This document shows positions 710 to 32,543 of a stretch of 36,476 nucleotides of DNA, in pieces. Source of the stretch: Cytophagaceae bacterium (GTDB taxonomy: Bacteria > Bacteroidota > Bacteroidia > Flavobacteriales > Flavobacteriaceae); contig PAUP01000064.1 in the NCBI GenBank assembly GCA_002712765.1, positions 1 through 36,476 of the forward strand, read 5' to 3'. The stretch's first letter is position 1. Each line of letters starts with the position of its first letter. Under the pieces are notes generated by a model that saw only the letters and a list, made by a program, of their open reading frames with translations, searched no databases and was not told the origin of the DNA. Position numbers and translations under genes: made by a program.

Positions 710-1618
710 ATGACCATGAAAGATGCCTTTGTTTCCTATATCAGAAATTTACAAGATCGTATTTGTACACGTCTCGAAGAAATTGATGGGTTAGCCCGTT
801 TTCAAGAAGATCTCTGGAAAAGACCTCAAGGAGGTGGAGGGCGCACCCGAGTTATTGCTAATGGGGCTGTCTTCGAAAAAGGTGGTGTTAATATCTCAGA
901 AGTACACGGAGAACTTCCTAAATCGATGCAAGATTACTTTGGGGTTAAAGACGCTCATTTCTTTGCCTGCGGGCTAAGCCTCGTCTTACACCCTGTAAAT
1001 CCTATGGTCCCTACGGTGCACGCAAACTGGCGGTATTTTGAGATGTATGATCCTGAAGGTAATCTGGTAGATCAATGGTTTGGTGGAGGTCAAGATTTGA
1101 CACCTTATTACCTTTTTGATGAAGATGCCATTCACTTTCATCAGGTATGCAAGACTGCCTGTGATGCGCACGACCCGATGTTTTATCCCAATTACAAACA
1201 TCGTTGTGATACTTATTTTTACAATAGCCATCGCAAGGAGGCCAGAGGTATTGGAGGGTTGTTTTTTGACTACCTCAAAGCCACAGAATCGCGCAGCATG
1301 CAAGATTGGTACGACTTTGTAACCACGGTGGGTGATAGTTTCTTAGATGCTTATGTTCCTATTGTGGAGAAAAGGCAGTCTCACGCTTTCGCGAAAGCGC
1401 ATAGAGACTGGCAAGAAATACGTCGAGGAAGATATGTAGAGTTTAATCTCGTTCATGACAAGGGTACCCTTTTTGGGTTAAAAACCGATGGGAGAATAGA
1501 GAGCATATTGATGAGTTTGCCCCCCAAAGTGCAATGGGTATACGATCATTTGCCGGCCGCTGGAAGCGAAGAAGCTCGCTTACTTGAGGTATTACAAAAT
1601 CCAAAAGACTGGGTGTAG
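710..1618 (+). CDS. hemF: oxygen-dependent coproporphyrinogen-III oxidase
   Basis: HemF performs the O2-dependent oxidative decarboxylation of coproporphyrinogen III to protoporphyrinogen IX in the cytoplasm. The protein has the usual length (about 300 residues) and the family landmarks: GGGGRTRVI near residue 42, the WFGGGQDLTPYYL block, RGIGGLFFDY, and the C-terminal RRGRYVEFNLVHDKGTLFGL block. ATG at 710 and ATG at 716 are both possible; the second (MKDAF) looks closer to family N-termini. The gene follows the EI24 gene by 6 bp and precedes hemB by 39 bp, which suggests a haem operon. Just before the RRGRYVEF block the peptide AFAKA is encoded by one copy of the palindromic repeat (1385-1398), where other HemF proteins have unrelated residues but the same length. 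Confidence 0.97.
   Translation: MTMKDAFVSYIRNLQDRICTRLEEIDGLARFQEDLWKRPQGGGGRTRVIANGAVFEKGGVNISEVHGELPKSMQDYFGVKDAHFFACGLSLVLHPVNPMVPTVHANWRYFEMYDPEGNLVDQWFGGGQDLTPYYLFDEDAIHFHQVCKTACDAHDPMFYPNYKHRCDTYFYNSHRKEARGIGGLFFDYLKATESRSMQDWYDFVTTVGDSFLDAYVPIVEKRQSHAFAKAHRDWQEIRRGRYVEFNLVHDKGTLFGLKTDGRIESILMSLPPKVQWVYDHLPAAGSEEARLLEVLQNPKDWV
1385..1398. repeat. palindromic repeat GCTTTCGCGAAAGC, copy 1 (in hemF)
   Basis: Perfect 14-bp palindrome, extended to 16 bp by flanking C and G. It is read in the frame GCT-TTC-GCG-AAA-GC and encodes AFAKA in HemF. Confidence 0.95.
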
Positions 1619-1657
1619 CTATCCCTATTAAAGAAGTATCAAATTAAACCAAAACCT

Positions 1658-2644
1658 ATGTATCCACTTAGAAGAAATCGCAGATTACGAAGCTCAGAAG
1701 CCATGCGTAGTTTGGTGCGTGAAACCCTAATATCTCCTAATGACTTTATCGTGCCGCTATTTGTGGTAGAAGGTAAGGGGGTTAAAGAAGAGATCAGCTC
1801 TATGCCAGGGTATTTTAGGTATAGTCTAGATCATATAAAAAAAGAGGTGCGAACACTTTGGGATATGGGTCTAAAATCAGTATTGTTATTTGTAAAAGTG
1901 CCTGATACTTTAAAAGATAATACAGGTAAGGAGGCTATTAATCCCGACGGCCTTATGCAACAGGCCATTAAGACAGTCAAAGACACGGTACCCGATATGA
2001 TCGTGATGACCGATGTCGCTTTAGATCCTTATTCGATATATGGTCATGATGGCGTGGTAGGACAAGGCGAGATTTTAAATGATGATACCAATGCCATTTT
2101 AGCCGAAATGGGGCTCTCTCACGCCAAAGCTGGAGCAGATGTACTGGCTCCAAGTGATATGATGGATGGTCGTATTTTTGAAATGCGTACACTTCTCGAA
2201 GATGAAGGTTTTGATCACACTGCTATTATGAGCTATAGTGCCAAATACGCCTCTTCTTTTTACGGTCCTTTTAGAGATGCGCTAGATAGTGCTCCTGTAG
2301 ATCAAAGCGAAATACCCAAGGATAAGAAAACCTATCAGATGGATTTTGCCAATAGGGGTGAAGCTATCAAAGAAACCTTGATGGACATTGAAGAAGGCGC
2401 CGATATTGTCATGGTCAAACCTGGCTTGTGCTATCTCGATATTGTAAGAGATCTCAGAGAGGTAGTTGATGTGCCTATCGCCGTATATCAAGTAAGTGGA
2501 GAATACGCTATGCTCAAAGCCGCTGCCGAAAAAGGTTGGTTAGATCACGACGCTGTAATGCTTGAACAAATTACAGCGATCAAACGGTCTGGAGCTCAAA
2601 TGATTGCCAGTTATTTTGCCAAAGATGTAGTGAATTTGCTTTAA
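1658..2644 (+). CDS. hemB: delta-aminolevulinic acid dehydratase (porphobilinogen synthase)
   Basis: HemB condenses two 5-aminolevulinate molecules to porphobilinogen. The 328-residue protein has full family length. The two Schiff-base lysines are visible as K196 in SYSAKYASSFYGP and K254 in MVKPGLCYLD. The metal-site region, starting at D119, reads DVALDPYSIYGHDG: aspartates and alanine stand where zinc-dependent enzymes carry cysteines, so this is the magnesium-type (Asp-rich) form. The APSDMMDGRI block is intact. It lies 39 bp after hemF on the same strand and no clear terminator follows it. The start MYPLRRNRRLR fits family N-termini. Confidence 0.97.
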   Translation: MYPLRRNRRLRSSEAMRSLVRETLISPNDFIVPLFVVEGKGVKEEISSMPGYFRYSLDHIKKEVRTLWDMGLKSVLLFVKVPDTLKDNTGKEAINPDGLMQQAIKTVKDTVPDMIVMTDVALDPYSIYGHDGVVGQGEILNDDTNAILAEMGLSHAKAGADVLAPSDMMDGRIFEMRTLLEDEGFDHTAIMSYSAKYASSFYGPFRDALDSAPVDQSEIPKDKKTYQMDFANRGEAIKETLMDIEEGADIVMVKPGLCYLDIVRDLREVVDVPIAVYQVSGEYAMLKAAAEKGWLDHDAVMLEQITAIKRSGAQMIASYFAKDVVNLL

Positions 2645-2774
2645 TAATATCACTTACATTATCATGGGTACTTACTGCTTGTGCGATCACACTCTGCCCT
2701 ATGAGGGTATGAAAGGGATCTTTTCGCAAAAGCGTAATAAAATGCATACCTTTACGAAAACACCACTATAAACC

Positions 2775-4383: not shown

Positions 4384-4406
4384 GCTAATGTTTGCTTAGC
4401 CATCAC

Positions 4407-6635
4407 CTATTCATTGGCCAAATTGGCTTTGTTGATATTTCGTAAAATTGTGGTTAGAAATTGAGAGACGTCATAAGGTTTTAAAATGATGTCATCCATG
4501 CCAGATTCTATAATAGTCGCTCTCATTTCGTCTAGCTCGACCGCTGTCAATGCTACTATAGGGGTGGTAGTATTAAACTCTCGAATCTGTAATGTAGCTT
4601 GAATCCCGTCAATTTTTGGCATATGAATATCCATCAGGATGAGATCATAGGTATTTGTTTTGACCATGGCTATGGCCTGAGCACCATCATCGGCAAGACT
4701 GCATTGAAACTGACGTTTTTCAAGAATCTTTTGAGTGATTTTTTGATTGATGCGATTGTCATCAACCACTAAGATATGTATGTTCTTTAATGAGTGAATG
4801 GTGTGACCTTCTCCTATCGCCAAATCCTTGGTTTCTTCACGATCGAGATCACTGCCTTGATTAGATTCTAAATTAATAATAAATGAGAAAGTTGATCCTT
4901 CTCCAATGCTGCTTTCCAACATGATTTCACTGTCGTATAAAGCCAGTAATTTTTTTACGATAGGTAGACCAAGGCCCGTCCCTTGATAATTATAGTTTCT
5001 ATTTTCGACTTGTGAAAATTCTTCAAAAATCGTCTTTTGCTTGCTTTTGGGAATACCGATCCCATCGTCTTTGACGGTAAACTTTGTGCGATAATAACCC
5101 TCTTTGGTCTTCTCTACCAATTTGATAGACACCCAGATATTTCCGTTTTCATTAAACTTGATAGCATTACCAATCAAGTTCATCAAGATTTGAGATATCC
5201 TTACCGAATCGCCTACTAATTTATTAGGAACTTGCTCATCTATCTCTAAATGAATAGTGTTTTTGTTTTGTTCAAGACTAAATTCAAAAGAGCGTGTAAT
5301 ACTCTTGGTCAAAGTAGACAACCTAAACGGTGTATGTTCTAACCTAACGCCATTGGCATCCATCTTATTTAAAAGCAAGACGTCGTTGATAAGCGCGAGA
5401 AGATAATCTGCCGAAAATTTTAACGACTGTAAATCTTCTTGATGCGTTTTTATGGCCTTTTCCTCTAGCAATATCGAGGCAATACCAATCACCCCGTAAA
5501 GAGGAGTTCGCAATTCGTGACTTACCGTCGAAAAAAACTGCGTTTTCATCTTGGACAGATGCTCTGCTTTTTCTTTGGCTACTTGAAGCTCGTGATTTCT
5601 TTCGCGTAAGCGCTTTACCAAATCTCTACGTGATTTAAAGGCTAGAATTAAAGTGATCAGTGCTACGAGCAACACCACCGAAGAAATGATAAATATAAGA
5701 TTGAGTTCACTAGATTTTTCTACGAGCTGATCACTAATTAGTTGCTCTTTTTTTGCAGCTTGGAGGTCGCGTTCAATCTGTTTGAGGTTGAGCTTGGCAC
5801 TAGCTGCTTGAATCTCACTTAACTTATCAGACTCATAGACGCGCTTTTCATAGGCCGTATACTTTTTGTAGTAGGCTAAGGCTGTTTGATAGTCATTTTG
5901 CAATTCCTTTAATTGAGCAAAATATTGATATACCTCGGCACCTTCTGTATATAATTGCTGTGCATCGGCGAGTTGAGCTGCAGTACTTAGTTGTTCTTCG
6001 GCAAGGACGTAATTGCCTTTACTCAAGTAATAGCGTCCCAAAAGTGTTTTGATCGCAACTGTGAATTCATTGTCTATAGGCGATTGATCAGAGAGTCTTT
6101 TGGCCTTTAGCAAATAGGGATAAGCTAGATCTGGCAATCCTTCATCGAGATAAGTCCAGGCAATATTAATATACGGGGTCGCATTTTCTCGTTGTCTATT
6201 GAGCTTGTCATTTATGGCAATACTTTTCTGGTAATAACGAATACCTTTTTGATAATTGGCCTTGCCATCAGATTCGACATTGCCAAGACTTATATAAGCC
6301 CATGACAAAAGACTATCTACCTGCATATCCTTGGCGATCTCTAGTCCTTTCTCATAAGATTGACGCGCCAATAGGGTATCCTTAATGTTGGTGTATACAT
6401 CACCTAATAAGTTATAGCCTTCAAATTGATAATAATCATATCCTCCAGCCTCGGCCATTGAGATGAGCTTACTGCTGTATTTGATTGCTTCGGTCGTGTT
6501 GTATTCGTAGAGGTTACTAGCGGCTAATTGTGCATAGTATTCTAAACTGTCTTTTACAACAGTATTCTCCTGCGCTTTGACCATAGAAGTCAAAAACAGA
6601 AATACTAGGCCACAAATAAATTTAAAGCGCATCAT
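4407..6635 (-). CDS. TPR-containing hybrid sensor histidine kinase/response regulator
   Basis: The 742-residue protein has a signal peptide (residues 1-22), periplasmic tetratricopeptide repeats (about 30-270), a coiled-coil-like segment, one transmembrane helix near 308-330 (LIFIISSVVLLVALITLIL), a HisKA domain with phospho-acceptor H373 in SHELRTPLYGVIG, an ATPase domain with NLIGNAIKFN, DDGIGIP and GTGLGLPIVKKL, and a C-terminal receiver with phospho-acceptor D669 in LILMDIHMPKIDG. All catalytic motifs look intact. No DNA-binding output domain or adjacent partner gene is seen, so the signal and target are unknown. A Bacteroidota-type promoter lies upstream (6657-6687). A near match to the palindromic repeat (12 of 14) at 5598-5611 encodes part of LRERN. 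Confidence 0.95.
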   Translation of the reverse strand: MMRFKFICGLVFLFLTSMVKAQENTVVKDSLEYYAQLAASNLYEYNTTEAIKYSSKLISMAEAGGYDYYQFEGYNLLGDVYTNIKDTLLARQSYEKGLEIAKDMQVDSLLSWAYISLGNVESDGKANYQKGIRYYQKSIAINDKLNRQRENATPYINIAWTYLDEGLPDLAYPYLLKAKRLSDQSPIDNEFTVAIKTLLGRYYLSKGNYVLAEEQLSTAAQLADAQQLYTEGAEVYQYFAQLKELQNDYQTALAYYKKYTAYEKRVYESDKLSEIQAASAKLNLKQIERDLQAAKKEQLISDQLVEKSSELNLIFIISSVVLLVALITLILAFKSRRDLVKRLRERNHELQVAKEKAEHLSKMKTQFFSTVSHELRTPLYGVIGIASILLEEKAIKTHQEDLQSLKFSADYLLALINDVLLLNKMDANGVRLEHTPFRLSTLTKSITRSFEFSLEQNKNTIHLEIDEQVPNKLVGDSVRISQILMNLIGNAIKFNENGNIWVSIKLVEKTKEGYYRTKFTVKDDGIGIPKSKQKTIFEEFSQVENRNYNYQGTGLGLPIVKKLLALYDSEIMLESSIGEGSTFSFIINLESNQGSDLDREETKDLAIGEGHTIHSLKNIHILVVDDNRINQKITQKILEKRQFQCSLADDGAQAIAMVKTNTYDLILMDIHMPKIDGIQATLQIREFNTTTPIVALTAVELDEMRATIIESGMDDIILKPYDVSQFLTTILRNINKANLANE

Positions 6636-8406: not shown

Positions 8407-8490
8407 GAGATTGCTATTTAACACCTTATTGGCACTTTCTACATCTTACAATGTGTTTTTTTGATATTCAATCAATCAACACTTTCTTAT

Positions 8491-10701
8491 ATGTATAAAA
8501 TAATTACACTTATTTTAGGTCTAATGGCTTCTCTGTCTCTTTTTGCCCAGCAAGAAGCCGCCCAATATAGTTTTGAGCCCAATGATCCTAATACTTCGCT
8601 TTGGTACGGCTATGGAGACGGCAACTATCTGGTAGCACTAGACAAGGACGTCTATCACGATGGTGCTACCTCGGTGCGTATTGAAAGTAAACCCGATAGC
8701 AAACAGTTTCAGCCTTTAACATTTTCTATTCCAGCAAATTTTGGAGGAAGCAAAATACAATTAAGTGGATGGATGAAATCAGAAAATATCAGTGGTGGCT
8801 ATGCTTCTTTTTGGCTGCGAATAGATCCCGATGTAGGCTTTACCAATATGGGAAGTAAGGTCCTAAGCGGCACTTCAGATTGGACAAAGTATACCCTCGA
8901 GCTCGATCTTAAACCTGGAGAGGCCAAGAAAATTGTATTTGGCGCCTTACTTTCGGGTCAAGGTAAAGTTTGGGTTGATGATATAACGCTTACTGTAGAT
9001 GGTCAACCCCTTGATAAAGCACCACCGGTACAGCTTACCAAAGCCCAAAAAGATACTGCTTTTGACCAGGGCTCTGGCTTTGAAATTGAAAATCCAACTA
9101 CTCAGCAACTTGAAAATTTGGCTTTATTAGGTAGAGTTTGGGGGTTTTTAAAGTACCATCACCCCGCTATTGCCAAGGGAGACTACAATTGGGACTATGA
9201 GTTATTTAGACATATGCAGGAGATTGCTTTCGCGAAAGCGGATACCACAAGAGATCAACTACTGCTCAAATGGATCGAATCATTAGGACCACTCCAAGAC
9301 TGCAATAGTTGCAAGCCAACACCGGCAAGCGCGGTCTTAAAACCAGATCATCAGTGGTTTACCAAAGGAGCTATCTCAGAGGACCTTGCACAAAAATTGC
9401 AAGAAGTATATCAAAAAAGAACCCAAGGCAACCATTATTATATAGAAACCGCCATAAATGTGGGCAATCCCGTATTTAAAAATGAAAAATCCTACGGGGA
9501 TATGCCTTATCCCGACACAGGATTTAGGCTGCTCGGGCTTTTCCGATATTGGAACATCATACAGTATTATTTTCCGTATAAGGACATAACAGATAACGAT
9601 TGGAATACTGTTTTGACTAGCTATCTCCCCATCTTTATCAATGCCCAAGATGAGCTAGCCTACGAAAAAGCCAATCTTCGACTCATTGGAGAAGTACAGG
9701 ACACACACGCCAATGTTTGGGGTGGGGCAGATAAATTTCAAGCTACCTTAGGCCGTAAATATCCCCCTATTCGGGCCGCATTTGTTGAAAATGAACTTGT
9801 TGTGGTTGATTATTACAATCCCGAAATGAAAGCAACTGTAGGTCTTGAATTAGGAGATGTAATTACACATATTAATAATAAAACAGTCAAAGACATTGTT
9901 CGAGAACGCATGCCATTTTATCCTGCTTCCAACGAAGCTGCAAGAGCTAGAGATATAGCCGAAAATATCCTGAGAAGTGATCGAGAAATCATTGAACTCA
10001 AGATAATACGAGACAAACAAAAGATGTCAAAAAATATCTCGATGTACCTTCAAGATGAACTGGACTATTACCGCTGGTATCGTCGGGAGAGTGAAGCCCC
10101 AAGTTTTAAGATGTTACCTGGTAATATAGGCTATATCACCCTAGCCAATATTAGTAGAGACGATCCTGAAAAAATAAAAAAGGCCTTTGCCAATTGCAAA
10201 GGGATAATCATTGATATCAGAAATTATCCATCGGCTTTTATGCCTTTTGCATTGGGTCAGTTTATTGCGCCTAGAAATACCGAGTTTGTCAAATTTACGA
10301 CTGTTGACCCCTCTAATCCTGGTGCTTTCATCATGGGAAAACCTCTGGCTACAGGAGCTGGAAATAAAGCAGAATTTCAAGGTAAAGTAGTGGTGCTAGT
10401 AAATGAACTCAGTCAAAGCCAAGCCGAATATACGGCAATGGCCTTTAGAGCGGCTCCTAATACCACCATCATTGGGAGTACTACGGCAGGAGCCGACGGT
10501 AATGTTTCTCGATTTAATCTCCCTGGGGGGCTAAGAACCATGATTTCTGGAATAGGTGTATTTTATCCTGATGGCAGCCCTACCCAACGTGTAGGTATTG
10601 TTCCAGATCTTGAGGTAACCCCTACCATACAAGGTATCAAAGAAGGACGAGACGAACTCTTGGAAAGTGCAATAAGTGTGATAGAAAAGGTAAAGCAGTA
10701 G
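8491..10701 (+). CDS. secreted S41 family peptidase
   Basis: A signal peptide (MYKIITLILGLMASLSLFAQ) is followed by a beta-rich N-terminal domain with a carbohydrate-binding-like appearance (about residues 25-175), a helical part (LLGRVWGFLKYHHP), a PDZ-like segment (LGLELGDVITHINNKTV after the VDYYNP strand) and the S41 protease domain. The likely catalytic serine is S643 in SQSQAEYTAMAF, followed by GSTTAGADGN. The ATG at 8491 is preferred over the upstream in-frame TTG at 8461 because the signal peptide starts there. A perfect palindromic repeat (9226-9239) encodes AFAKA in the segment before the protease domain. There is no T9SS tail, so periplasmic location is likely. Substrate unknown. 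Confidence 0.88.
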   Translation: MYKIITLILGLMASLSLFAQQEAAQYSFEPNDPNTSLWYGYGDGNYLVALDKDVYHDGATSVRIESKPDSKQFQPLTFSIPANFGGSKIQLSGWMKSENISGGYASFWLRIDPDVGFTNMGSKVLSGTSDWTKYTLELDLKPGEAKKIVFGALLSGQGKVWVDDITLTVDGQPLDKAPPVQLTKAQKDTAFDQGSGFEIENPTTQQLENLALLGRVWGFLKYHHPAIAKGDYNWDYELFRHMQEIAFAKADTTRDQLLLKWIESLGPLQDCNSCKPTPASAVLKPDHQWFTKGAISEDLAQKLQEVYQKRTQGNHYYIETAINVGNPVFKNEKSYGDMPYPDTGFRLLGLFRYWNIIQYYFPYKDITDNDWNTVLTSYLPIFINAQDELAYEKANLRLIGEVQDTHANVWGGADKFQATLGRKYPPIRAAFVENELVVVDYYNPEMKATVGLELGDVITHINNKTVKDIVRERMPFYPASNEAARARDIAENILRSDREIIELKIIRDKQKMSKNISMYLQDELDYYRWYRRESEAPSFKMLPGNIGYITLANISRDDPEKIKKAFANCKGIIIDIRNYPSAFMPFALGQFIAPRNTEFVKFTTVDPSNPGAFIMGKPLATGAGNKAEFQGKVVVLVNELSQSQAEYTAMAFRAAPNTTIIGSTTAGADGNVSRFNLPGGLRTMISGIGVFYPDGSPTQRVGIVPDLEVTPTIQGIKEGRDELLESAISVIEKVKQ
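9226..9239. repeat. palindromic repeat GCTTTCGCGAAAGC, copy 2 (in S41 peptidase)
   Basis: Perfect 14-bp palindrome, encoding AFAKA in the same frame as the hemF copy. Confidence 0.95.
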
Positions 10702-10747: not shown

Positions 10748-12763
10748 ATGAAGTTATTTTCGATATCCGAATTTTTTAAAAAGGCTACAGCGGCGTTTAG
10801 GCGCTTTCCTTTTACCTTAAGCTGGGCGCTTTTAGGCACGGCCCTCATGGTCTATTGGATAGAGGTTGACAATCATCTCTTTTTTGAAGATCACTACAGA
10901 ATATTTTTGGTAATCATCCTAGGTATTAGCTGGCTTATAGGAAGTCAGTTTTATATAGAACAGTTTACTGCCTACAAAAAACTATGGTGGTTAAAAATAG
11001 TAGTGATCCTAGCGGTATGCGCTTTCTATTTTTTACTCCCTGCAGATACCTCTCAAACCTCAGACCCTACTCCATTTGTTAAGTGGGGTATCTTTTTACT
11101 GGGAGGACATATAAGCTTACTATTTGCCCCTTTTATCACGGTATGGCACCCCAAAGCTTATTGGAATTATTTGAGCAATAGCCTAGTGGCTGTGGCGCGT
11201 AGCCTACTATTTACCGGAATCTTGTATTTAGGATTGGTATTGGCCTTACTCGCTGTACAGTTTTTATTTTCGGTTGACATTCCAGAACGACGCTATCTAA
11301 TGCTATTTGTAGTTTGTCTAGGCATCGTACACACCTGGGTGTATCTGGCCGATTTTCCAGAATTAATACAGCATAATATCCATATGCATTTTCACAAAGC
11401 CTCAGCGGTTTTTGTGAAATTTATTCTCATCCCATTGGCCCTGTTATACATTGTGATCTTATATGCATATGCCCTAAAGATTGTCGTTAATTGGGAATTG
11501 CCCAAAGGATGGGTGAGTTATCTCATCACCGCCTTAGCAGCACTATTGCTCCTTATACAATTTATAATTCACCCTATTAGAATACGCCACGAATCCCGTC
11601 TTATTCGCAAATTTCAACCCTTGTGTTATTGGTTGTTTTTGCCCTTGTTGCCGCTGCTGTACGTTGCCATTTACAAACGCGTGCATGACTACGGAATCAC
11701 GGTAGCACGTTACTATTTGGTAGTGCTAGCGCTATTTATTACTGGGGCAGTGTTATACCTGATCTTTAGTCGCAAACAGCAATTACGAGTATTACCAATA
11801 GTCTTTGTCGTCCTACTTCTAGGTGGGTCATTTGGATTTTGGGGCGCTTTTTCAGTCTCAATAAGGAGTCAGAAATACGAGTTGAAGGAATTGTATAACG
11901 CTTTCGCGAAAGCTGACATTAACCCAACAAAAACGGACATCGCTATAATCAGTAAAACCAAAAACATAAATTCTATTCAATCCAATAATGACAAGACTAC
12001 CTCCTACAACCACATTAATAACAATGCGAACAACAATGACAACACTTCTAATAACACACAAACTGTCGTCACTACAAGTACATCCGATAAGTACAACCGT
12101 GTAAAGACTACTACACCCCATGACAACCTGACACAAACTACCATCGCCAATCATAGCACTTCCAAAACAATAAGCGCTGCCCAAGCTGGTCGCTTCCAAG
12201 ACATTATCCAATATCTATATAAACGAGAAGCCATAACAGAAATAGCCGAGGCTATTGGATATGATCCCACAAGTTTCGCCAACAAAAACAGCTATTGGGA
12301 AATTGCCGATTATATATTAGAACGAGAAGGTATTACACCCCTCGAAGCTAATTTAGATACTTCTTATAGAAGTTTTCTAGCTCAGTATGACGCTGCCCTA
12401 CCTATAGAAAACTACCAATGGCTCCGATCGATGTATCTCAACTCAGAAACTAAAACATGCAACCCCAAGCAGATGCTACAAGACTATTGTTTTGTGTTCA
12501 ATTCTCAACAAACTGCAATACGTGTTAAAAAAGAGCAGCAACAAGTGCTTGAAATAGATTTTCAACCACTCAAAAAACGACTATTGCAACGTCCCATTAG
12601 GGATGGTTCAAATATCCCACTTGAAGAGCTTATGATAAGTAGTGAGAACGATAGTATTCGTATAAAGATCTATTTTACCGAACTCTATATTAACTTTGCC
12701 AATAAGGACCAAGAACAATTAAATTCAAAAATGCAGGTGCTTTTGAGTAAGAAGTATGATTGA
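10748..12763 (+). CDS. DUF4153 multi-pass membrane protein with Asn/Thr-rich insertion
   Basis: The N-terminal 375 or so residues contain about ten hydrophobic helices and the DUF4153 signature, including YKRVHDYGITVARYYLVVLALF and the later GFWGAFSVSIRSQ. The soluble C-terminal part follows. Between them (about residues 390-475) is a low-complexity Asn/Thr/Ser-rich stretch with runs such as NNNANNNDN, which I do not recall as part of the family. Its left edge coincides with a palindromic repeat encoding AFAKA (11900-11913). Function of DUF4153 proteins is unknown. A 13-bp inverted repeat (10734-10746) ends 1 bp before the ATG. The stop overlaps the start of the next gene by 8 bp, indicating coupling. 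Confidence 0.85.
   Translation: MKLFSISEFFKKATAAFRRFPFTLSWALLGTALMVYWIEVDNHLFFEDHYRIFLVIILGISWLIGSQFYIEQFTAYKKLWWLKIVVILAVCAFYFLLPADTSQTSDPTPFVKWGIFLLGGHISLLFAPFITVWHPKAYWNYLSNSLVAVARSLLFTGILYLGLVLALLAVQFLFSVDIPERRYLMLFVVCLGIVHTWVYLADFPELIQHNIHMHFHKASAVFVKFILIPLALLYIVILYAYALKIVVNWELPKGWVSYLITALAALLLLIQFIIHPIRIRHESRLIRKFQPLCYWLFLPLLPLLYVAIYKRVHDYGITVARYYLVVLALFITGAVLYLIFSRKQQLRVLPIVFVVLLLGGSFGFWGAFSVSIRSQKYELKELYNAFAKADINPTKTDIAIISKTKNINSIQSNNDKTTSYNHINNNANNNDNTSNNTQTVVTTSTSDKYNRVKTTTPHDNLTQTTIANHSTSKTISAAQAGRFQDIIQYLYKREAITEIAEAIGYDPTSFANKNSYWEIADYILEREGITPLEANLDTSYRSFLAQYDAALPIENYQWLRSMYLNSETKTCNPKQMLQDYCFVFNSQQTAIRVKKEQQQVLEIDFQPLKKRLLQRPIRDGSNIPLEELMISSENDSIRIKIYFTELYINFANKDQEQLNSKMQVLLSKKYD
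11900..11913. repeat. palindromic repeat GCTTTCGCGAAAGC, copy 3 (in DUF4153 gene)
   Basis: Perfect 14-bp palindrome encoding N-AFAKA-D at the left edge of the Asn/Thr-rich insertion. Confidence 0.95.
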
Positions 12764-17850: not shown

Positions 17851-19539
17851 GTGAAATCACCTCCTATTCTTAGCGCTCGTCATCTTCATATTTCCTTCAA
17901 ACAACAAAATGATTGGAGGCAAGTGGTTCACGATGTTAATTTTGAGCTGTTTCCTAATGAGGTTCTTGCCATAGTCGGAGAGTCTGGCTCTGGCAAATCG
18001 GTATCTACCTTGGCCATCCTAGGACTATTACCAAAGAAAAAAGCGCGTATTTCGGGTAGTATCACTTTTGAAGGTCTAGAGCTTAACCACTTAGACCAAG
18101 CTTCGTTTCGCAAGATACGAGGACGACAAATCTCTATGATTTTTCAGGAACCCATGAGTTCTCTCAACCCATCTATGCATTGTGGAAATCAGGTAATAGA
18201 AGTGTTGATGCAACATACGGCTATGAGCTACAAACAAGCGCGTAGCCAGACGCTTTCGCTATTTGAAAAAGTAAAGTTGCCAAGACCAGAAAGTATGATG
18301 CGCTCTTATCCTCATCAGTTAAGTGGTGGCCAGAAACAACGTGTTATGATTGCTATGGCAATAGCTTGCAAGCCCAAAGTTCTCATTGCAGACGAGCCAA
18401 CAACTGCTTTGGATGTAACCGTCCAAAAAGAGATCATCGACCTGCTCAAAACCCTGCAGCAAGAAACGGGGATGAGTATTATTTTTATTTCTCATGACCT
18501 CTCTTTAGTAGGTGATATTGCAGATAGAGTAATGGTGATGTACCAAGGACAGGTAGTAGAGACCGCTTCCGCGAAAGCGATATTTGATCAACCACAACAC
18601 CAATATACCAAGGCTTTATTACACGCACGACCTTCATTGGAGGTGAGGCTCAAAAAACTGCCTACTATAGATGATTATTTGAAAGAGCGTACCCACACCG
18701 CAATCATCTCACCACAACAAAGACAAGAAGCACACGAAAAAATTTACAACCGACACCCGCTCTTGGAAGTGAGAGATCTGTCCAAAACCTATATATCTAA
18801 TACAGGATGGTTTGGAAAAAGAGAAGAAGTTAACGCTGTTAATGAAGTTTCTTTTAAGATTTATGAAGGTGAAACATTAGGACTTGTAGGAGAATCGGGC
18901 TGTGGTAAGTCTACCCTTGGCAATGCGATATTACAATTGGAGCCGGCTACCTCTGGAGCTATTTTTTACAAAGGAAAAGACATCACCACCCTCAAAGGGA
19001 AACAGCTAAGAGCTTTACGTAAAGAAATACAAATTATATTTCAGGATCCTTTTGCCAGTCTCAACCCAAGATTAACTGTGGGACAAGCCGTCATGGAGCC
19101 TATGACGGTACATAAATTATATGCCCACAAAAAAGAGCGCATAAGCCGTACTATAGCTTTACTTAAAAGTGTAGGCCTTACCGAAGATCATTTTCACAGA
19201 TATCCTCATGAGTTTAGTGGTGGGCAGCGACAACGTATTGGTATCGCGCGCACTATTGCCTTGCAACCTAAGTTAATTGTATGTGATGAATCTGTAAGCG
19301 CTCTTGATATTAGCGTTCAAGCTCAGGTGTTAAATTTGCTCAATACCCTTAAAGAAACCTATGGCTTTACCTATATATTTATATCACATGATCTTGCCGT
19401 AGTCAAATACATGGCCGATCAATTAATTGTCATGCAAGCTGGTAAAATAGAAGAAATGGGAGAAGCCGACCAGGTCTATAAAAAGCCGCAAAGGCCATAC
19501 ACCCAACGTCTCATTAATGCCATACCTAAAGGTCGTTAA
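17851..19539 (+). CDS. peptide/nickel-type ABC transporter, fused double ATPase
   Basis: Two complete ATPase domains lie in one chain, corresponding to DppD plus DppF or to YejF. Walker A motifs are GESGSGKS (residues 43-50) and GESGCGKS (about 347-354). Signature motifs are LSGGQKQR (about 156) and FSGGQRQR (about 455), and the Walker B segments are VLIADEPTTALD and LIVCDESVSALD. Each half ends with the oligopeptide-family segment (QHQYTKALL; QRPYTQRLINAIP). No permease or binding protein gene is adjacent, so its partners are encoded elsewhere. The start is GTG at 17851. A palindromic repeat variant (18565-18578) encodes ASAKA in the region where relatives usually have GxxKE. Confidence 0.93.
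   Translation: MKSPPILSARHLHISFKQQNDWRQVVHDVNFELFPNEVLAIVGESGSGKSVSTLAILGLLPKKKARISGSITFEGLELNHLDQASFRKIRGRQISMIFQEPMSSLNPSMHCGNQVIEVLMQHTAMSYKQARSQTLSLFEKVKLPRPESMMRSYPHQLSGGQKQRVMIAMAIACKPKVLIADEPTTALDVTVQKEIIDLLKTLQQETGMSIIFISHDLSLVGDIADRVMVMYQGQVVETASAKAIFDQPQHQYTKALLHARPSLEVRLKKLPTIDDYLKERTHTAIISPQQRQEAHEKIYNRHPLLEVRDLSKTYISNTGWFGKREEVNAVNEVSFKIYEGETLGLVGESGCGKSTLGNAILQLEPATSGAIFYKGKDITTLKGKQLRALRKEIQIIFQDPFASLNPRLTVGQAVMEPMTVHKLYAHKKERISRTIALLKSVGLTEDHFHRYPHEFSGGQRQRIGIARTIALQPKLIVCDESVSALDISVQAQVLNLLNTLKETYGFTYIFISHDLAVVKYMADQLIVMQAGKIEEMGEADQVYKKPQRPYTQRLINAIPKGR
18565..18578. repeat. palindromic repeat variant GCTTCCGCGAAAGC, copy 4 (in ABC ATPase)
   Basis: One base (T to C at the fifth position) differs from the consensus. 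It encodes T-ASAKA-I in the usual frame. Confidence 0.85.
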
Positions 19540-24058: not shown

Positions 24059-24538
24059 TTATTCTGGTCTTTCAATACGCATGCCTACTTCGGTAATCCC
24101 CTTTAGGACCTGGTCACCTTCTACGCTGCCGTTTCTGCGCATCGCGTGATTGATTTTAAGGGTGTAGGTTCCGCTTTCGCGAAAGCGAAAACCTTCCTTA
24201 TACCACAATTTGCTTTCTTTTATATCTCCCATTCCTGCTCCTAAAAGTTCTCCCGAGGGAGCCGCCATACGATATTCTAAGGTATCCGTTTGAAGCTTGC
24301 CATTGGGGTAATTCATCTCAGTAATCAGAAACAAATTATTGTATGGATACTCGTGATTTGCTCTTAGAGTGATAAACAGATCTAGCGGTTGCAGACTATC
24401 TATATCGGCCAAGTCAAAAGCGAGTGTTCTCGATTTTTCCCAACCATCACCCAAGGATTGGTAACTGTCATACACGCTGTTGTCATCACATCCAATAAGC
24501 GACAACACAACAACAAATACTCCTATCCATTTACGCAT
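24059..24538 (-). CDS. gldH: gliding motility lipoprotein GldH
   Basis: This 159-residue lipoprotein is needed for gliding in Flavobacterium johnsoniae. The lipobox is LSLIGC with lipidated C17, and the body contains the family blocks LPLDLFITLRANHEYPYNN (seen as LQPLDLFITLRANHEYPY) and NLFLITEMNYPNG. A much longer frame extends upstream to 24772 but lies inside ricT in another frame; the start at 24538 gives a proper lipoprotein signal and overlaps the ricT stop by 8 bp. A perfect palindromic repeat (24173-24186) encodes FRES in the segment FRFRESGTYTLKI, where relatives have an F+FPESGTYTF-like sequence of equal length. Confidence 0.92.
   Translation of the reverse strand: MRKWIGVFVVVLSLIGCDDNSVYDSYQSLGDGWEKSRTLAFDLADIDSLQPLDLFITLRANHEYPYNNLFLITEMNYPNGKLQTDTLEYRMAAPSGELLGAGMGDIKESKLWYKEGFRFRESGTYTLKINHAMRRNGSVEGDQVLKGITEVGMRIERPE
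24173..24186. repeat. palindromic repeat GCTTTCGCGAAAGC, copy 5 (in gldH)
   Basis: Perfect palindrome, 16 bp with the flanking C and G. It is the only copy in this window read in the TTT-CGC-GAA-AGC frame (FRES). Confidence 0.95.
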
Positions 24539-25853
24539 CAGACCCTGGTTTTGGTTTACGCTTGTTGTTTTTTCTTCGAGAAGAATTTCTTTTTTGATTC
24601 GATCCTTTGGCTTCGCCTGGCTGCTTAGCACTTTGAGATTTGTTGTTTTGTCGCTTTGACGATTGTCCTGATGATGCTTTGGCCTGCGACTTAGCTTGTT
24701 GTGAAGCAACGGGCTTTTTACGGCGTGAATTCTTGCGTTTTTTTCGTCGGTTGTTTTTTTGAGGTTGATCAAAGCGAGTTAAGCTGTCTTGTCCTACAAC
24801 GTTGCCAAAATCTACTTTAGTATCTATGACGAGCTCGGCGGCAAATTCTTCAAGACTAGCTACAGGTTCTTTGGCCTTATTGGCAGCAATGATTTCATTG
24901 GCATGTGTGGTAGATAGTTTGTGCCAATTCATCCACTCACCTTCATAAGCATACCATAACAGCCCCTGAAAAATATCAATCTTTTGACATACGGCTGTCC
25001 CTTTTTGGGTATAGAGTTTTTGTTCGGTTTTGGGAAAATCTTTGAGCGCATCCATATAAGCATCCAGCTCATAATTGAGACAGCACTTTAATTTTCCACA
25101 TTGACCGGCGAGTTTTTGAGGGTTGAGTGATAATTGTTGGTAGCGCGCAGCACTCGTACTCACAGATCTAAAATCTGTTAGCCAAGTAGAACAGCACAGC
25201 TCACGGCCGCAGGAACCAATCCCGCCCAGTCGTGAAGCTTCCTGCCGCAACCCAATTTGACGCATCTCAATTCGGGTTCTAAATTCTTGAGCAAACTCTT
25301 TGATGAGTTGTCTAAAATCGACTCTGTCTTCGGCGGTGTAATAAAAGGTGGCTTTGGAAGCATCGCCCTGAAATTCGATATCCGAGATCTTCATTTGCAA
25401 TTGAAGTCGTATCGCAATCTCGCGCGCTCTCACCTTCATCGGTTCTTCTCGCTCTCTAGCTTTGGTCCAGATATCGATATCTTTTTGAGTTGCCTTGCGA
25501 TATACTTTGAGGGTGTCTTCGGTATCTTGTTTGACGCGTTTGCGTTTCATCTGTACCCGTACGAGTTCTCCAGTAAGGGTTACCATCCCAATATCATGGC
25601 CAGAAGCGGCCTGAGTGGCAACGATATCGCCAATATTTAAAGACAAATCTTCTGTATTCTTATAGTAGTCTTTACGACCGTTTTTAAAACGTACTTCTAC
25701 ATAATTGAACGGTGCCTGACCTTCGGGGAGTGCCATATTTGACAACCAGTCAAATACGGTCAATTTATTACATCCATCTGTTCCACAAGTGCCGTTATTC
25801 TTACAACCTTTGGGTTGCCCATCGGCTCCTGTGCCACAATTTCCACATGCCAT
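24531..25853 (-). CDS. ricT: PSP1 domain protein (RicT/YaaT homologue)
   Basis: The 440-residue protein begins with a Cys-rich segment (MACGNCGTG, CKNNGTCGTDGC). The PSP1 core carries two conserved cysteine clusters, SCGRELCC near 213 and QCGKLKCC near 248. In Bacillus, RicT belongs to the Fe-S-containing RicAFT complex that acts with RNase Y in mRNA maturation; the flavobacterial role is not established. The C-terminal 75 or so residues are a Lys/Arg/Ser/Gln/Asn-rich tail, probably disordered and perhaps RNA-binding (inference). It is the first gene of an operon, with its stop overlapping the gldH start (ATGCGTAA, 8 bp). Confidence 0.88.
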   Translation of the reverse strand: MACGNCGTGADGQPKGCKNNGTCGTDGCNKLTVFDWLSNMALPEGQAPFNYVEVRFKNGRKDYYKNTEDLSLNIGDIVATQAASGHDIGMVTLTGELVRVQMKRKRVKQDTEDTLKVYRKATQKDIDIWTKAREREEPMKVRAREIAIRLQLQMKISDIEFQGDASKATFYYTAEDRVDFRQLIKEFAQEFRTRIEMRQIGLRQEASRLGGIGSCGRELCCSTWLTDFRSVSTSAARYQQLSLNPQKLAGQCGKLKCCLNYELDAYMDALKDFPKTEQKLYTQKGTAVCQKIDIFQGLLWYAYEGEWMNWHKLSTTHANEIIAANKAKEPVASLEEFAAELVIDTKVDFGNVVGQDSLTRFDQPQKNNRRKKRKNSRRKKPVASQQAKSQAKASSGQSSKRQNNKSQSAKQPGEAKGSNQKRNSSRRKNNKRKPKPGSDA

Positions 25854-26003: not shown

Positions 26004-26017
26004 GCTTTCGCGAAAGC
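26004..26017. repeat. palindromic repeat GCTTTCGCGAAAGC, copy 6 (upstream of M23 gene)
   Basis: Perfect palindrome, 16 bp with flanking T and A, in noncoding DNA ending 24 bp before the M23 peptidase ATG. Confidence 0.93.
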
Positions 26018-28850: not shown

Positions 28851-28864
28851 GCTTTCGCGAAAGC
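28851..28864. repeat. palindromic repeat GCTTTCGCGAAAGC, copy 7 (upstream of recA)
   Basis: Perfect palindrome, 16 bp with flanking T and A, 56 bp before the recA ATG and 19 bp before a TATTTTTA box, in the position expected for a -33 element. Confidence 0.93.
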
Positions 28865-28920
28865 AAACCCCTAAAAGAAGCCTTATTTTTACAACACATT
28901 TAAGGATAAAAATACAAGCT

Positions 28921-29928: not shown

Positions 29929-29933
29929 TAAAA

Positions 29934-29964
29934 AAAACCTCCTGCCCCAAAGCAGGAGGTTTTT
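29934..29964 (+). terminator. intrinsic terminator of recA
   Basis: AACCTCCTGC (29936-29945) pairs with GCAGGAGGTT (29952-29961) around a 6-nt loop, followed by TTTT; it starts about 6 bp past the recA stop. Confidence 0.93.
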
Positions 29965-30029
29965 ACTTTAGACACGCAACCTTTTAGGCCAAATTGCATC
30001 TACAAAGCAAACCCCCTAGTACTAAGCAT

Positions 30030-30443
30030 ATGAAAAGGATACTACTAGTTTGCCTGATGGCAATCACAGTGATGAGCTGTAGCGATGAAGAGGTGCCTAT
30101 ATTTTTCTTTGAATTCGTACCTGTTGAATCGGTGACCAACATTCCCGACAACTTTACGGTCGATAAACCCGACACGCTTCAAATTACGTATTTTAGACCT
30201 TCTACCTGTCATGGTTTTGACGGTTTTGAAGTAGAGAAAGATGGCGATGCTCGCAATATTGCTATTATAACTAAAGTCATAGAAGAGCGTGGTGATTGTG
30301 AGCCGCTTAATGAGGATGTTCGTACAGCACCACTTATCTTTAAGCCAGAAGAGACAGGAAGTGTACAACTTCGCTTTTTTCAAGGCAAAGATGAAGAAGG
30401 AGAAAACCAATTTTTAATTGTCGATGTACCTATTATAGACTAA
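30030..30443 (+). CDS. small lipoprotein of unknown function
   Basis: The 137-residue product starts with a lipoprotein signal (MKRILLVCLMAITVMSC, lipidation at C17) and continues as an acidic, beta-rich domain with the segments FEFVPVESVTNIPDNF and PDTLQITYFRPSTCHGF. Two further cysteines (in STCHG and RGDCEP) could form a disulfide. An upstream in-frame ATG at 29994 lacks a lipoprotein signal and was not used. I do not recognise the family. It ends 22 bp before the ECF sigma factor gene on the same strand, so it is likely in the same operon and may act in the same envelope-signalling circuit (inference). Confidence 0.8.
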   Translation: MKRILLVCLMAITVMSCSDEEVPIFFFEFVPVESVTNIPDNFTVDKPDTLQITYFRPSTCHGFDGFEVEKDGDARNIAIITKVIEERGDCEPLNEDVRTAPLIFKPEETGSVQLRFFQGKDEEGENQFLIVDVPIID

Positions 30444-30465
30444 GAACTAACCAATAAACGAATTA

Positions 30466-31014
30466 GTGAGTTTAGATCAACTCATCAAGAATTGTAAACG
30501 GAACAATGCAAAAGCACAAGAAGAACTCTACAAGCGCTACGCGAGTACCTTGTTTTCAATTTGCTTGAAGTATTCTCCAAACTATGCAGATGCTGAAGAT
30601 ACACTGCAAGATTCGTTTATGGTCATCTTTGATAAGGTAAGTCAATACAAAGGCAAGGGGTCGTTTGAAGGATGGCTCAAACGAGTGACTATCAACACGG
30701 CTTTGCAGCGCTATCGCAAGCATACCGTATTGGATATTATAAATGAAGAAAAAATACAAGATGTAAATGTCGAGGTTGACCAAGAAAGTATCTCGCTCGA
30801 TTTTTTACTGGGCATTATTCAAGAGTTGCCTGATCGTTACCGTTTGGTGTTTAACCTCTACGTGCTCGATGGCTACTCTCACAGAGAAATAGCAAAGATG
30901 CTTGATATTTCTGAAGGCACCTCAAAATCAAATTTGGCACGTGCCCGCGTTATTTTAAAGGACAAAATTGAGGCGATCAAATCAAGGCCTCTAAGACAGA
31001 CTCAAACCCGATGA
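30466..31014 (+). CDS. ECF-type RNA polymerase sigma factor
   Basis: A 182-residue sigma-70 family protein with region 2 (YADAEDTLQDSFMVIFDKVSQY and FEGWLKRVTINTALQRYRK) and region 4 (LPDRYRLVFNLYVLDGYSHREIAKML followed by SEGTSKSNLARARVILK). Regions 1 and 3 are absent, as in extracytoplasmic-function sigma factors. The start is GTG at 30466. Its stop overlaps the next start as ATGA, so it is translationally coupled to the TM-barrel protein, the expected position for an anti-sigma or regulator gene. The regulon is unknown. Confidence 0.93.
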   Translation: MSLDQLIKNCKRNNAKAQEELYKRYASTLFSICLKYSPNYADAEDTLQDSFMVIFDKVSQYKGKGSFEGWLKRVTINTALQRYRKHTVLDIINEEKIQDVNVEVDQESISLDFLLGIIQELPDRYRLVFNLYVLDGYSHREIAKMLDISEGTSKSNLARARVILKDKIEAIKSRPLRQTQTR

Positions 31015-32543
31015 AGGAGAGAAAGAACATAGACCGGTTGTTTCAGGAGAAATTCAAAGACTTTGAAGCACATCCTAGTGATCGTGTGTGGCAAAATATT
31101 GCTTCCGCGAAAGCGCAAAAAGAAGAACGAAAAGTACTGCCTATATGGTGGCGCCTTGGCGGTATTGCTGCGGCCTTATTGTTATTGTTGGCACTGGGAA
31201 ATATCCTATTAAATTCAAATGCTGATAGCACGACACCACTTGTCAATACCGAGACAAAAGACACCACGCTATCTAAAGAAACCCCTGTTGCTACAGATCT
31301 TAAGGAGGCAAATATTACCCCAGAGCAGTCCAATAACCCAAAAACACAAGTAACAACCACGGCTACACAAGCAGACTTTGATCAAAATCCTGTGGCCACA
31401 TCAAATACTGACTCAAATATTAGCGCTAAAGGACGTAACCCATTGACTACAGCGACTAGTGTTATAGCCACCACAGAGCAAGAAGAACAAACTTCTAACA
31501 ATGGTCAGAATCAAAATTTAAGGTATAAAACCCCAGTAGAAGAGACACGTGTCAAGGCAGTGCAAACGACTAGTGCAATTGCCCAGACGCCTGTAATAGA
31601 AGAAACTATCACTGCAAAAAGCGGCGTGTCTGAGGTAAGCCAAGACGCTAAAAACAATACTGCCATTGACTCTAATCAAGACCTGTCTTCTGATCGTGCT
31701 GTTGCTGTTCAAAATGAGAATGAGCAACAAGGTCAAGACAATGAAAAAGTATCGCTTATTGACGTAGCCGAAGAAATTAATCGCAATAAAACGGAAGAAG
31801 ATGCTATTGCTAGTACTAATGCTACGCAGCCAAGTGATAAATGGCGAGTGGGAGCCGTTGCTGCGCCGGTATACTATGGAGACTTTGGCGGATCTGGAAT
31901 AGATCCTCAATTTAAAGACAACAGCAAATCTGGAGATGTCAATCTGAGTTATGGGGTACAGGTTAGCTATGCGGTTTCTGATAAAATCAAATTGAGAACT
32001 GGTGTTAGCAATGTTGACCTGAGTTATGGCACCAATGATATCTCATTTAGGCCAGATATCGCCGCGACCAAACTCGCTGGGGTAGCCCCCAATAGAAATG
32101 GTAAATTTTTGAGCGTATCAGACAAGGTAGGGCCTCAGGCGCTACAGCAAAGTGATTTTCAGGGCGGAGGCAGCTCGGTGTCTAATGGAAGTATCAATCA
32201 GCAAATTGGATATATAGAAGTACCCTTAGAGGCGGTTTATGTGTTGTCAAACAAAAGACTAGGCGTAGAGGTTATTGGCGGCGTAAGTACCTTGTTTGTA
32301 AACGATAATGAAATCGCGATAGAATCTGATGGCTTACGCACTCCTATAGGTGCATCAAGCAGTTTGAATGACGTTAGTTTTACCACCAACATAGGTGTTG
32401 GCCTCAATTATAAAGTCACAGAAAAAATAGACATCAATATGGAACCTACTCTCAAATATCAGTTAAATGCATTTGAGGCAAGTGCGGGTAATTTTAAACC
32501 CTATTATGTCGGATTGTATACAGGAGTGAGTTATCGCTTCTAA
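31011..32543 (+). CDS. TM-anchored protein with outer-membrane beta-barrel C-terminus, possible anti-sigma
   Basis: The 510-residue protein has a short charged cytoplasmic N-terminus (residues 1-46, including DRLFQEKFKDFEAHPSDRVW), one membrane helix (about 48-68, GGIAAALLLLLALGNILL), a low-complexity Ser/Thr/Asn/Gln/Glu-rich linker (about 70-270), and a C-terminal part (about 275-510) with repeated short beta-strands ending YVGLYTGVSYRF, the aromatic end typical of outer-membrane barrels. The N-terminus resembles anti-sigma-like proteins following flavobacterial ECF factors. It overlaps the sigma gene by 4 bp. A palindromic repeat variant encodes ASAKA near residue 31. The anti-sigma role is inferred, not shown. 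A strong terminator follows. Confidence 0.78.
   Translation: MKERKNIDRLFQEKFKDFEAHPSDRVWQNIASAKAQKEERKVLPIWWRLGGIAAALLLLLALGNILLNSNADSTTPLVNTETKDTTLSKETPVATDLKEANITPEQSNNPKTQVTTTATQADFDQNPVATSNTDSNISAKGRNPLTTATSVIATTEQEEQTSNNGQNQNLRYKTPVEETRVKAVQTTSAIAQTPVIEETITAKSGVSEVSQDAKNNTAIDSNQDLSSDRAVAVQNENEQQGQDNEKVSLIDVAEEINRNKTEEDAIASTNATQPSDKWRVGAVAAPVYYGDFGGSGIDPQFKDNSKSGDVNLSYGVQVSYAVSDKIKLRTGVSNVDLSYGTNDISFRPDIAATKLAGVAPNRNGKFLSVSDKVGPQALQQSDFQGGGSSVSNGSINQQIGYIEVPLEAVYVLSNKRLGVEVIGGVSTLFVNDNEIAIESDGLRTPIGASSSLNDVSFTTNIGVGLNYKVTEKIDINMEPTLKYQLNAFEASAGNFKPYYVGLYTGVSYRF
31101..31114. repeat. palindromic repeat variant GCTTCCGCGAAAGC, copy 8 (in TM-barrel gene)
   Basis: The same T-to-C variant as copy 4, encoding I-ASAKA-Q in the usual frame, close to the sigma-contact candidate region. 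Confidence 0.85.

Follow-up and report, generated by a model that had tools for sequence, protein, structure and literature searches.

A strictly conserved, highly iterated palindrome of flavobacterial genomes and its possible role as a mark of self DNA

HIP1 (GCGATCGC) of cyanobacteria is a perfect palindrome of 8 bp, which occurs in very many copies and in certain lineages only; we know of no function agreed upon so far. The uptake sequences (USS/DUS) of Pasteurellaceae and Neisseriaceae are long words with hundreds of copies, which are restricted to clades and possess an extended consensus around a core. Chi sites of AddAB and RecBCD are found on the whole chromosome, in E. coli about once per few kb; known Chi words are short, asymmetric, and read on one strand. 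The sites of ParB (parS), Noc, and MatP are strongly conserved palindromes of 13-16 bp, which are far less frequent than the word described here and show a positional bias. Finally, REP elements are short dispersed palindromes.

The flavobacterial word studied here resembles each of these systems and deviates from each of them. Compared to HIP1, it is longer (14-22 bp, with arms of about 20 nt) and belongs to a different phylum, and no constant methyltransferase accompanies it among the three families tested. According to passages of PMC4390886, 'one-off' forms of HIP1 are common in many cyanobacteria, whereas one-mismatch copies of the flavobacterial word are rare. In contrast to USS/DUS, it is palindromic, its over-representation falls more steeply from the exact form to one mismatch, and it is also found in phages and islands. 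With Chi it shares the density of about one per few kb, the distribution over the chromosome, and the presence of AddB-like genes; however, it is a 14-bp palindrome, which would be unique for a Chi site, and a low-power comparison revealed no AddB signature that separates carriers from non-carriers. Unlike those of parS, Noc, and MatP, its sites follow no trend that would be evident along the chromosome, and no ParB specific to carriers goes with them. It differs from REP elements in that half of the sites lie in genes, the site in gldH did not arise by insertion, and the arms do not covary.

The window, i.e. the whole stretch of DNA that was analysed, comprises 36,476 nt. A preliminary description had listed eight copies of the palindrome, and all eight coordinates were correct: six copies are exact and two share the same single change. 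Together with the more distant forms, the sites are:

1385..1398: exact site, read in the AFAKA frame, within hemF (coproporphyrinogen III oxidase, 710-1618, plus strand; assigned by Pfam PF01218)
5598..5611: two-mismatch form TCTTTCGCGTAAGC, within a hybrid histidine kinase gene (4407-6635, minus strand)
9226..9239: exact site, within a gene with a Peptidase_S41 domain (8461-10701, plus strand; PF03572)
11900..11913: exact site, 5' arms without C, within a DUF4153 gene (10748-12763, plus strand)
18565..18578: one-mismatch site GCTTCCGCGAAAGC, within an ABC-transporter ATPase gene (17851-19539, plus strand; PF00005)
24173..24186: exact site, read in the FRES frame, 5' arms without C, close to the 3' terminus of gldH, which lies on the minus strand within 24059-24772
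26004..26017: exact site; according to the start codon chosen for a Peptidase_M23 gene, it either lies between this gene and a PSP1-domain gene or coincides with the very beginning of the Peptidase_M23 gene
28851..28864: exact site, intergenic, directly upstream of recA (28921, plus strand)
31101..31114: one-mismatch site GCTTCCGCGAAAGC, close to the 5' terminus of a gene for an outer-membrane beta-barrel protein (31011-32543, plus strand)
2720 and 21075: two three-mismatch forms

With up to three mismatches, the window contains 11 matches, compared to an expectation of 1.29 (standard deviation 1.21); none of 100 dinucleotide shuffles reached 11. The two-mismatch form at 5598 is possibly a decayed site. 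Four of the six exact copies are flanked by complementary bases, as had been described (1385, C/G; 24173, C/G; 26004, T/A; 28851, T/A). The three open frames of the repeat are also real: the peptides AFAK, LSRK, and FRES recur in proteins.

The genome of origin contains 369 exact copies in 2.77 Mb, i.e. one per 7.5 kb, in an assembly that is 78% complete; the reversed control word has 0 copies. In all 17 congeners, 385-905 exact copies were counted; within the genus, the window and its own genome represent the sparse end. These numbers fully support the earlier proposal of a genome-wide element, and the hunch that similar peptides occur in marine flavobacteria was right. Among 397 genomes of the family, only the source genus (g1, probably Dokdonia), the genus g11 (three genomes), and g210 (one genome) are rich in the word; all others possess 0-19 copies. 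A phylum sample of 394 other genomes contained the 16-mer in 10 cases, with one or two copies each. In the following, G016 and G007 are congeners belonging to g1, G005 and G008 are further carriers, G230 is a member of g210, and G281 a member of g11. A 400-kb sample of G016 contains 129 exact copies, whereas Markov models (orders 1-4), fitted after masking of the sites, predict 0.00014-0.00084. The preliminary description had named counts near Markov expectation and a lack of conservation in relatives as observations that would speak against its proposal; the data are very far from both. As with HIPs, a short perfect palindrome is thus distributed genome-wide far above expectation, and the features of uptake sequences, namely hundreds to thousands of copies, an extended consensus, and clade restriction, are likewise present. 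Copy number rises weakly with genome size among the 17 congeners (Spearman 0.54, P 0.026; for the 13 congeners that are at least 93% complete 0.40, P 0.18), and site density is lowest in large genomes; consequently, a drive acting on the core genome fits as well as a requirement for a certain density.

The preliminary description had not noted that the copies possess flanking arms, that one-mismatch forms are scarce, that the spacing is even, that positions are conserved, and that a second lineage carries the word. A longer dyad, TTAC-GCTTTCGCGAAAGC-GTAA, has the 14-mer as its core, and 5' of this dyad each strand possesses a segment of about 20 nt that is poor in C and rich in G/T. The extended dyad is present in g1 and g11; in the flanks of the g11 sites, T amounts to 79% at position -4 and C to 92% at position -1, and between -4 and -19 C does not exceed 13%. 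No covariation connects the arms of the two sides, which argues for base preferences and not for a stem. A hairpin or RNA element was rejected for the same reason; Rfam gave only one tRNA in the window and three further loci (L080, L081, L130), and the ability of the 22-mer to fold (-7.3 kcal/mol) is common to all palindromes. A terminator was rejected as well, because a G/T-rich 5' arm with an A/C-rich 3' arm is the reverse of what a terminator needs, and because genes contain half of the sites. A polarity of the arms relative to replication or transcription was also rejected; the differences were small when means were compared. The C depletion has no 3-nt rhythm at intergenic sites; at coding sites, its rhythm can originate from codon wobble positions. 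In G230, 41 of 47 sites are located in coding DNA and the arms are weak, so that neither arms nor intergenic preference are universal. (Arm, coding, and half-site counts of G230 are based on 19 of 22 stretches, with L197-L199 excluded, its shared positions and mismatch fall on all 22; sites too close to stretch ends, 2 of 91 in G281, were excluded from arm and coding counts.)

The core is strict. Besides the 129 exact copies, the G016 sample contains 6 one-mismatch and 18 two-mismatch copies, which exceed expectation but are far rarer than the exact form. In all 141 TTTCGCGAAA words of this sample, GC adjoins one side or both, and the half-sites GCTTTC and GAAAGC were found solely at a spacing of 2 bp with the centre GC. 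In the 22 site-rich genomes, one-mismatch copies amount to 6-31% of the exact ones. From exact to one-mismatch copies, over-representation, computed by the formula given in a section of PMC1939737, falls 1018-fold in G016, 388-fold in G007, 569-fold in G281, and 128-fold in G230.

In the four sampled genomes, the mean gap between sites is 2.9-5.3 kb. Counts per 20 kb are more even in G016 than expected at random (variance/mean 0.30, Poisson P 0.0013), and G281 has a similar ratio of 0.29. Taken in their order along the G016 chromosome, 20 evenly spaced stretches showed no evident trend in counts. Of the 129 sites, 64 lie outside called genes, i.e. in about 9% of the DNA, and 65 within them. 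The site upstream of recA occupies the same alignment column in all 14 aligned genomes of the genus; the gldH site does so in 13 of these and additionally in G230, whereas in the 14th genome, G011, gldH lies outside the fetched stretch. Even spread and positions often kept between species indicate that some component of the cell most likely reads the word. Of the coding sites, 9/13 are shared between G016 and G007, 3/13 between G016 and G230, and 2/15 between G007 and G230; with G281, G016 and G007 share 0/19 and 0/20. As positions are mostly common within the genus, in part with g210, and in none of these comparisons with g11, the word apparently spread on two occasions; the sites of g11 form a second set, whose core is identical and whose arms are similar. 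How a site originates can be seen at the one locus examined, gldH: the alignment is free of gaps, carriers have FRESG, and five non-carriers have FREAG, FKEAG, FSEAG, FFEDG, and FKEEG. Base substitution created this site where it stands.

The word is also carried by phages and by metal-efflux islands of other genera. Stretches from nine non-carrier genomes contain 38 sites, the majority within related islands; these sites possess the same arms (C 8%), and armed sites are present in phage contigs. The idea of a local dialect of a universal system was rejected: among 93 loci of at least 8 kb, the palindrome was detected in all seven reference loci from carriers, and a palindromic 10-mer in at least four spaced copies in none of the other 86, a scan that shorter or rarer words would escape. 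Four loci contained non-palindromic repeats; 75 loci, which stem from a scan with the S41 peptidase, served as controls only.

No reader was found: neither methyltransferases of three families nor an extra ParB follows the carriers, and the evidence on AddB is divided. In G005 (757 copies) and G008 (808 copies), no match to PF00145, PF01555, or PF02086 (C5, N6/N4, and D12 methyltransferases; Type I, Eco57I-like, and phosphorothioate systems lie outside these families) exceeded the family cut-offs, and the three families are patchy in the other carriers tested. Methylation, one of the signals suggested in the preliminary description, is therefore disfavoured as a common cause. The same holds for segregation of the ParB/Noc type, since a single chromosomal-type ParB is found in 30 of 30 genomes, carriers and non-carriers alike, and no trend is evident along G016. 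Extra ParB copies exist in the carrier G010 and in the non-carriers G141, G254, and G029; among these 30 genomes, no paralogue is restricted to carriers. All 28 genomes searched contain a frame of about 900-1000 aa that matches PF12705, and 24 of them a second, weaker match; we read these as putative AddB and AddA. An AddB tree computed by FastTree joins g1, G230, and g11 (0.914), whereas a tree of eight genes places g11 elsewhere; with IQ-TREE, AddB of g1 and g11 join without G230 (bootstrap 45). In a low-power comparison of 20 genomes, no AddB residue was fixed in the 9 carriers and absent in the 11 non-carriers.

What, then, might the word be for? A chromosome-organising protein, which anchors loops, positions topoisomerases, or acts in the nucleoid and binds once per few kb, is a possible but doubtful explanation. 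The perfect dyad with its symmetric arms, the even spacing in G016 and G281, the absence of a trend along the chromosome, and the intergenic enrichment in G016 agree with it. However, no nucleoid protein is known to us that is this strict over 14 bp at hundreds of sites, carriers have no ParB paralogue of their own, and the organiser alone does not explain armed sites in phages. We consider it unlikely that a surface receptor prefers the word and that transformation and recombination spread and repair it. Such an uptake sequence would match the hundreds of copies in few genera, the conserved positions, and the origin by substitution, and its drive would remove one-mismatch copies, too; yet known uptake words are asymmetric, and the sites in phages and islands do not fit. 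In addition, the fall of 128- to 1018-fold is larger than the values of 92 for H. influenzae and 82 for N. gonorrhoeae printed in a section of PMC1939737, although longer words may fall more steeply regardless of function.

Very improbable is a HIP1-like system, in which an orphan DNA methyltransferase recognises the interior of the palindrome and methyl-directed repair ratchets the sites up, because methyltransferase sites are shorter than 14-22 bp plus arms and G005 and G008 are devoid of matches to the three families. What speaks for it is that the palindrome is highly iterated and rich in CG at its centre, like the cyanobacterial HIPs described in passages of PMC4390886. That the word is a self-copying mobile repeat of the REP/MITE type is scarcely credible: it is a dispersed palindrome, half of whose sites lie outside called genes in G016, but the other half does not, the gap-free gldH alignment reveals no insertion at this locus, and beyond the dyad there is no conserved unit, as the outer flanks consist of base preferences only.

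With a probability of roughly 0.35, we favour the dyad as the recognition site of a putative dimeric reader that tags self DNA, perhaps in a Chi-like manner. The existence of a sequence-specific reader is very probable; a Chi-like 'self' mark for the processing of DNA ends, a function that the preliminary description does not list, is a tentative guess at its job. A trans-acting, dyad-symmetric DNA-binding factor would recognise the word as the core of its site and benefit if DNA residing in the cell offers such a site every few kb, and selection or drive would clear damaged sites. Whichever side a helicase-nuclease comes from, it would find the core in readable orientation, and a recombinase would be loaded 5' of the core, on the segment rich in G/T and poor in C, which is available on both strands; RecA prefers G/T-rich strands. 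For this Chi-like job alone we count the AddB-like genes in all 28 genomes, the FastTree grouping of AddB, and a 3-nt rhythm of G/T in the arms, which is weak but also occurs at intergenic sites (P 0.0044, uncorrected); against it we count that AddB-like genes are equally present in genera without the word. The word may represent a new class of genome-wide self tag, long and palindromic with strand-specific arms, wanted every few kb and carried by phages and islands, the same letters having perhaps evolved twice in flavobacterial lineages after the gain of a reader.

Compared to HIP1, the word is longer, has few one-mismatch copies and additional anatomy, and seemingly originated twice. We know of few genome-wide DNA words that are as strict, and its hosts, probably Dokdonia, are culturable marine model bacteria. 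The word may also be usable as a tag of provenance, as clusters of copies in other genera may suggest DNA that stems from carriers.

The six exact and two one-mismatch copies of the 14-bp palindrome (the word) that the preliminary description had reported were all located again at their positions when the window was re-scanned. Their excess over chance is real: 11 matches with at most three mismatches compare with 1.29 expected, and none of 100 dinucleotide shuffles reached 11. The window forms contig 64 in a genome assembly of 2,773,188 bases (78% complete), which contains 369 exact copies of the word and none of the reversed word. The predicted conservation among relatives was also found, since all 17 other examined genomes of the same genus (g1, probably Dokdonia, Flavobacteriaceae) contain 385–905 copies. 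In the same count, 39 of 41 other relatives from the family or order had none; G029 had 6 and G027, a member of genus g11, had 578. A draw of 397 genomes from the family, G000 and G011 of g1 among them, gave 80 with at least one copy, and high counts were confined to g1, g11 (besides G027, G281 with 664 and G433 with 609) and genus g210 (G230, 408); the rest had 0–19. G116 and G326 of genus g96 and G091 of g71 stand above the other non-carriers with 16, 19 and 17 copies, which may belong to islands or to a low-level system. Extended by an outer C and G to a 16-mer, the word occurred in 11 of 395 genomes of a phylum sample, 162 times in the window's own genome and once or twice in each of the other ten. 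Within 13 kb of an unrelated Bacteroidota contig (L058), non-palindromic 12-mers recur in about 11 copies spaced by 300 bp or more.

The 14-mer and its inner 12-mer were absent from the main texts of the 5.39 million papers searched, most subscription papers lying outside this set; ten papers contain the inner 10-mer alone. The opening abstract lines of papers on Dokdonia that mention palindromes contain nothing on this word, and literature on the "highly iterated palindrome" deals, judging by titles and abstracts, with cyanobacteria or with the subject in general. A term search of the PRO95 genome paper (PMC3587595) gave no mention of palindromes, the parts seen of the RepRanger paper (PMC12306157) do not mention Dokdonia, and the listings of further searches held nothing on the word.

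The word is kept strictly. In a 400-kb sample of the g1 genome G016 (one contig, 3,293,944 bases), 129, 6, 18 and 14 words had 0, 1, 2 and 3 mismatches, compared with averages of 0, 0, 0.77 and 10.4 for 60 permuted palindromes. From exact to one-mismatch words, over-representation in the samples dropped 1018-fold in G016, 388-fold in G007 (also g1), 569-fold in G281 and 128-fold in G230. In whole genomes, one-mismatch copies (total at up to one mismatch minus exact count) ranged from 46 versus 737 exact copies in G002 of g1 to 128 versus 408 in G230; the window's own genome has 61 versus 369. In the G016 sample, every TTTCGCGAAA is bordered by GC on one side or both, and only one spacing is found between the two half-sites. 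A second iterated form, ATTTTCGCGAAAGC, was found 24 times in 400 kb of G007 (stretches L140–L159), with 20 of the 24 copies outside called genes; this half-variant looks as if a new dialect were forming in one species.

Twenty evenly spaced 20-kb stretches of G016 contained 3–9 copies each, with no evident trend in their order along the chromosome. The variance-to-mean ratio of these counts was 0.30 (P = 0.0013); it was 0.70 in G007, 0.29 in G281 and 0.60 in G230. Outside called genes lay 64 of 129 sites in G016, 46 of 89 in G007, 34 of 89 in G281 and 6 of 47 in G230, counts that are approximate because genes were called as simple longest ORFs; non-coding DNA amounts to 9–13%. The intergenic excess of the other three genomes is thus absent from G230, where 41 of 47 sites lie in coding DNA, flanking arms are weak and one-mismatch copies are many, a pattern that may reflect a system at its beginning or in decay.

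At the 129 G016 sites the dyad extends to TTAC-core-GTAA. Counting both strands, C is preferred at -1 (88%), A at -2 (57%), and T at -3 (74%) and -4 (64%). Between -3 and -19, C drops to 1–14%, and G stays at 15–43% from -4 on (background about 19% each); each strand is therefore G/T-rich for about 20 nt 5' of the core. Such C-poor arms are present in g1, at intergenic as well as coding sites, and in g11, and are weak in G230. The preference of g11 for C (44%) over A (18%) at -2 is a dialect. No arm-to-arm covariation was detected at 25 positions (largest |z| 2.33, negative). A 3-nt rhythm of arm G/T gave P = 0.0044 (intergenic) and 0.011 (coding) in g1 and 0.095 and 0.018 in g11, and T alone gave 0.013, 0.002, 0.053 and 0.065 in the same order, all uncorrected for the several measures and sets tried; C alone showed no such rhythm at intergenic sites (P = 0.27 in g1, 0.78 in g11).

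In several non-carrier genomes the scarce copies are clustered, and in seven of them, from seven genera (G118, G127, G254, G141, G376, G029, G386), related islands account for most of the copies:
L100, L102, L103, L106, L108, L109, L113, L117: copper/heavy-metal efflux island stretches
By Pfam, the genes of the one island scanned (L103/L104) specify RND efflux, an outer-membrane efflux protein, a multicopper oxidase and P-type ATPases, and in four of the seven genomes a pair of sites lies 933 bp apart inside the same outer-membrane efflux gene. Arm C averages 8% over all 38 scorable sites (18 stretches, nine non-carrier genomes). In non-carriers, the word may mark DNA originating from a carrier.

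In IMG/VR, at least 120 stretches contain the word. Among the matches listed, 132 scorable sites average 23% arm C and 20% of sites have at most 10%, so most viral matches resemble chance occurrences or sites of other lineages. Ten stretches on 7 contigs match a strict armed pattern; eight proteins from armed-site viral stretches were compared with protein families, and the protein of L254 had no match. Matches were:
L305: portal and head proteins (phage families)
L326: tail tape measure protein (phage family)
L241: terminase (phage family)
L263, same contig as L241: transposase and transposition protein (phage families)
L258, same viral contig as L241 and L263: a family of unknown function
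The sites of this transposable (Mu-like) phage contig, and those of the other phage contigs (L305, L326), have C-poor arms; some phage copies lie within genes.

The pattern calls for a reader, probably dimeric, that recognises 14–22 bp with two-fold symmetry, tolerates any gene context and favours a regular density of sites. As its job we favour a Chi-like self mark, at which a recombinase would load onto the arms. We rank it first because on either strand the arm lies to the 5' side of the core, where loading would take place, and because phages and islands carry the word; every link from site to job is inferred. A role in chromosome organisation is as likely. The chromosomal-type ParB occurs in 30 of 30 genomes with no paralogue specific to carriers, and is disfavoured as reader. 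DNA uptake and methylation fit less well. C5 and D12 methyltransferases are patchy (16 of 36 and 14 of 30 genomes), N6/N4 enzymes exceed the cut-off in none of 13 g1 genomes, and the g1 genomes G005 and G008 have none of these three families. As to AddB, a low-power comparison of the proteins of 20 genomes revealed no diagnostic residue; FastTree unites g1, G230 and g11 (0.914), and IQ-TREE unites g1 and g11 without G230 (bootstrap 45).

The history of the sites was followed in an alignment of the recA region from 14 of 18 g1 genomes. The site just upstream of recA is present in all 14 and the gldH site in 13, gldH lying outside the stretch of G011; the remaining columns are occupied in 1–9 genomes. 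Four genomes without the site after an outer-membrane gene carry one after tyrS, which indicates that sites turn over. At the gldH site, the gap-free alignment reads FRESG in carriers versus FREAG, FKEAG, FSEAG, FFEDG and FKEEG in five non-carriers. In the samples, reciprocal orthologues of G016 and G007 share 9 of 13 coding sites; with G230, 3 of 13 G016 sites (proteins 40–52% identical) and 2 of 15 G007 sites are shared. With G281 of g11, none of 19 G016 and none of 20 G007 sites are shared, and one of 12 G230 sites is; a looser tally placed a few g11 sites no more than 8 codons from one of g1 or g210. An eight-gene tree places G230 beside g1 with mixed support (FastTree 0.961; IQ-TREE bootstrap 44) and g11 apart from both. 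The simplest account of the shared positions and the tree has the word spreading in the g1/g210 line and a second time in g11, where the core is identical and the arms are similar; a single old origin with near-complete turnover later on is a less simple but possible account. Two spreads with one core point to a reader that would have come or changed in both the g1/g210 line and g11.
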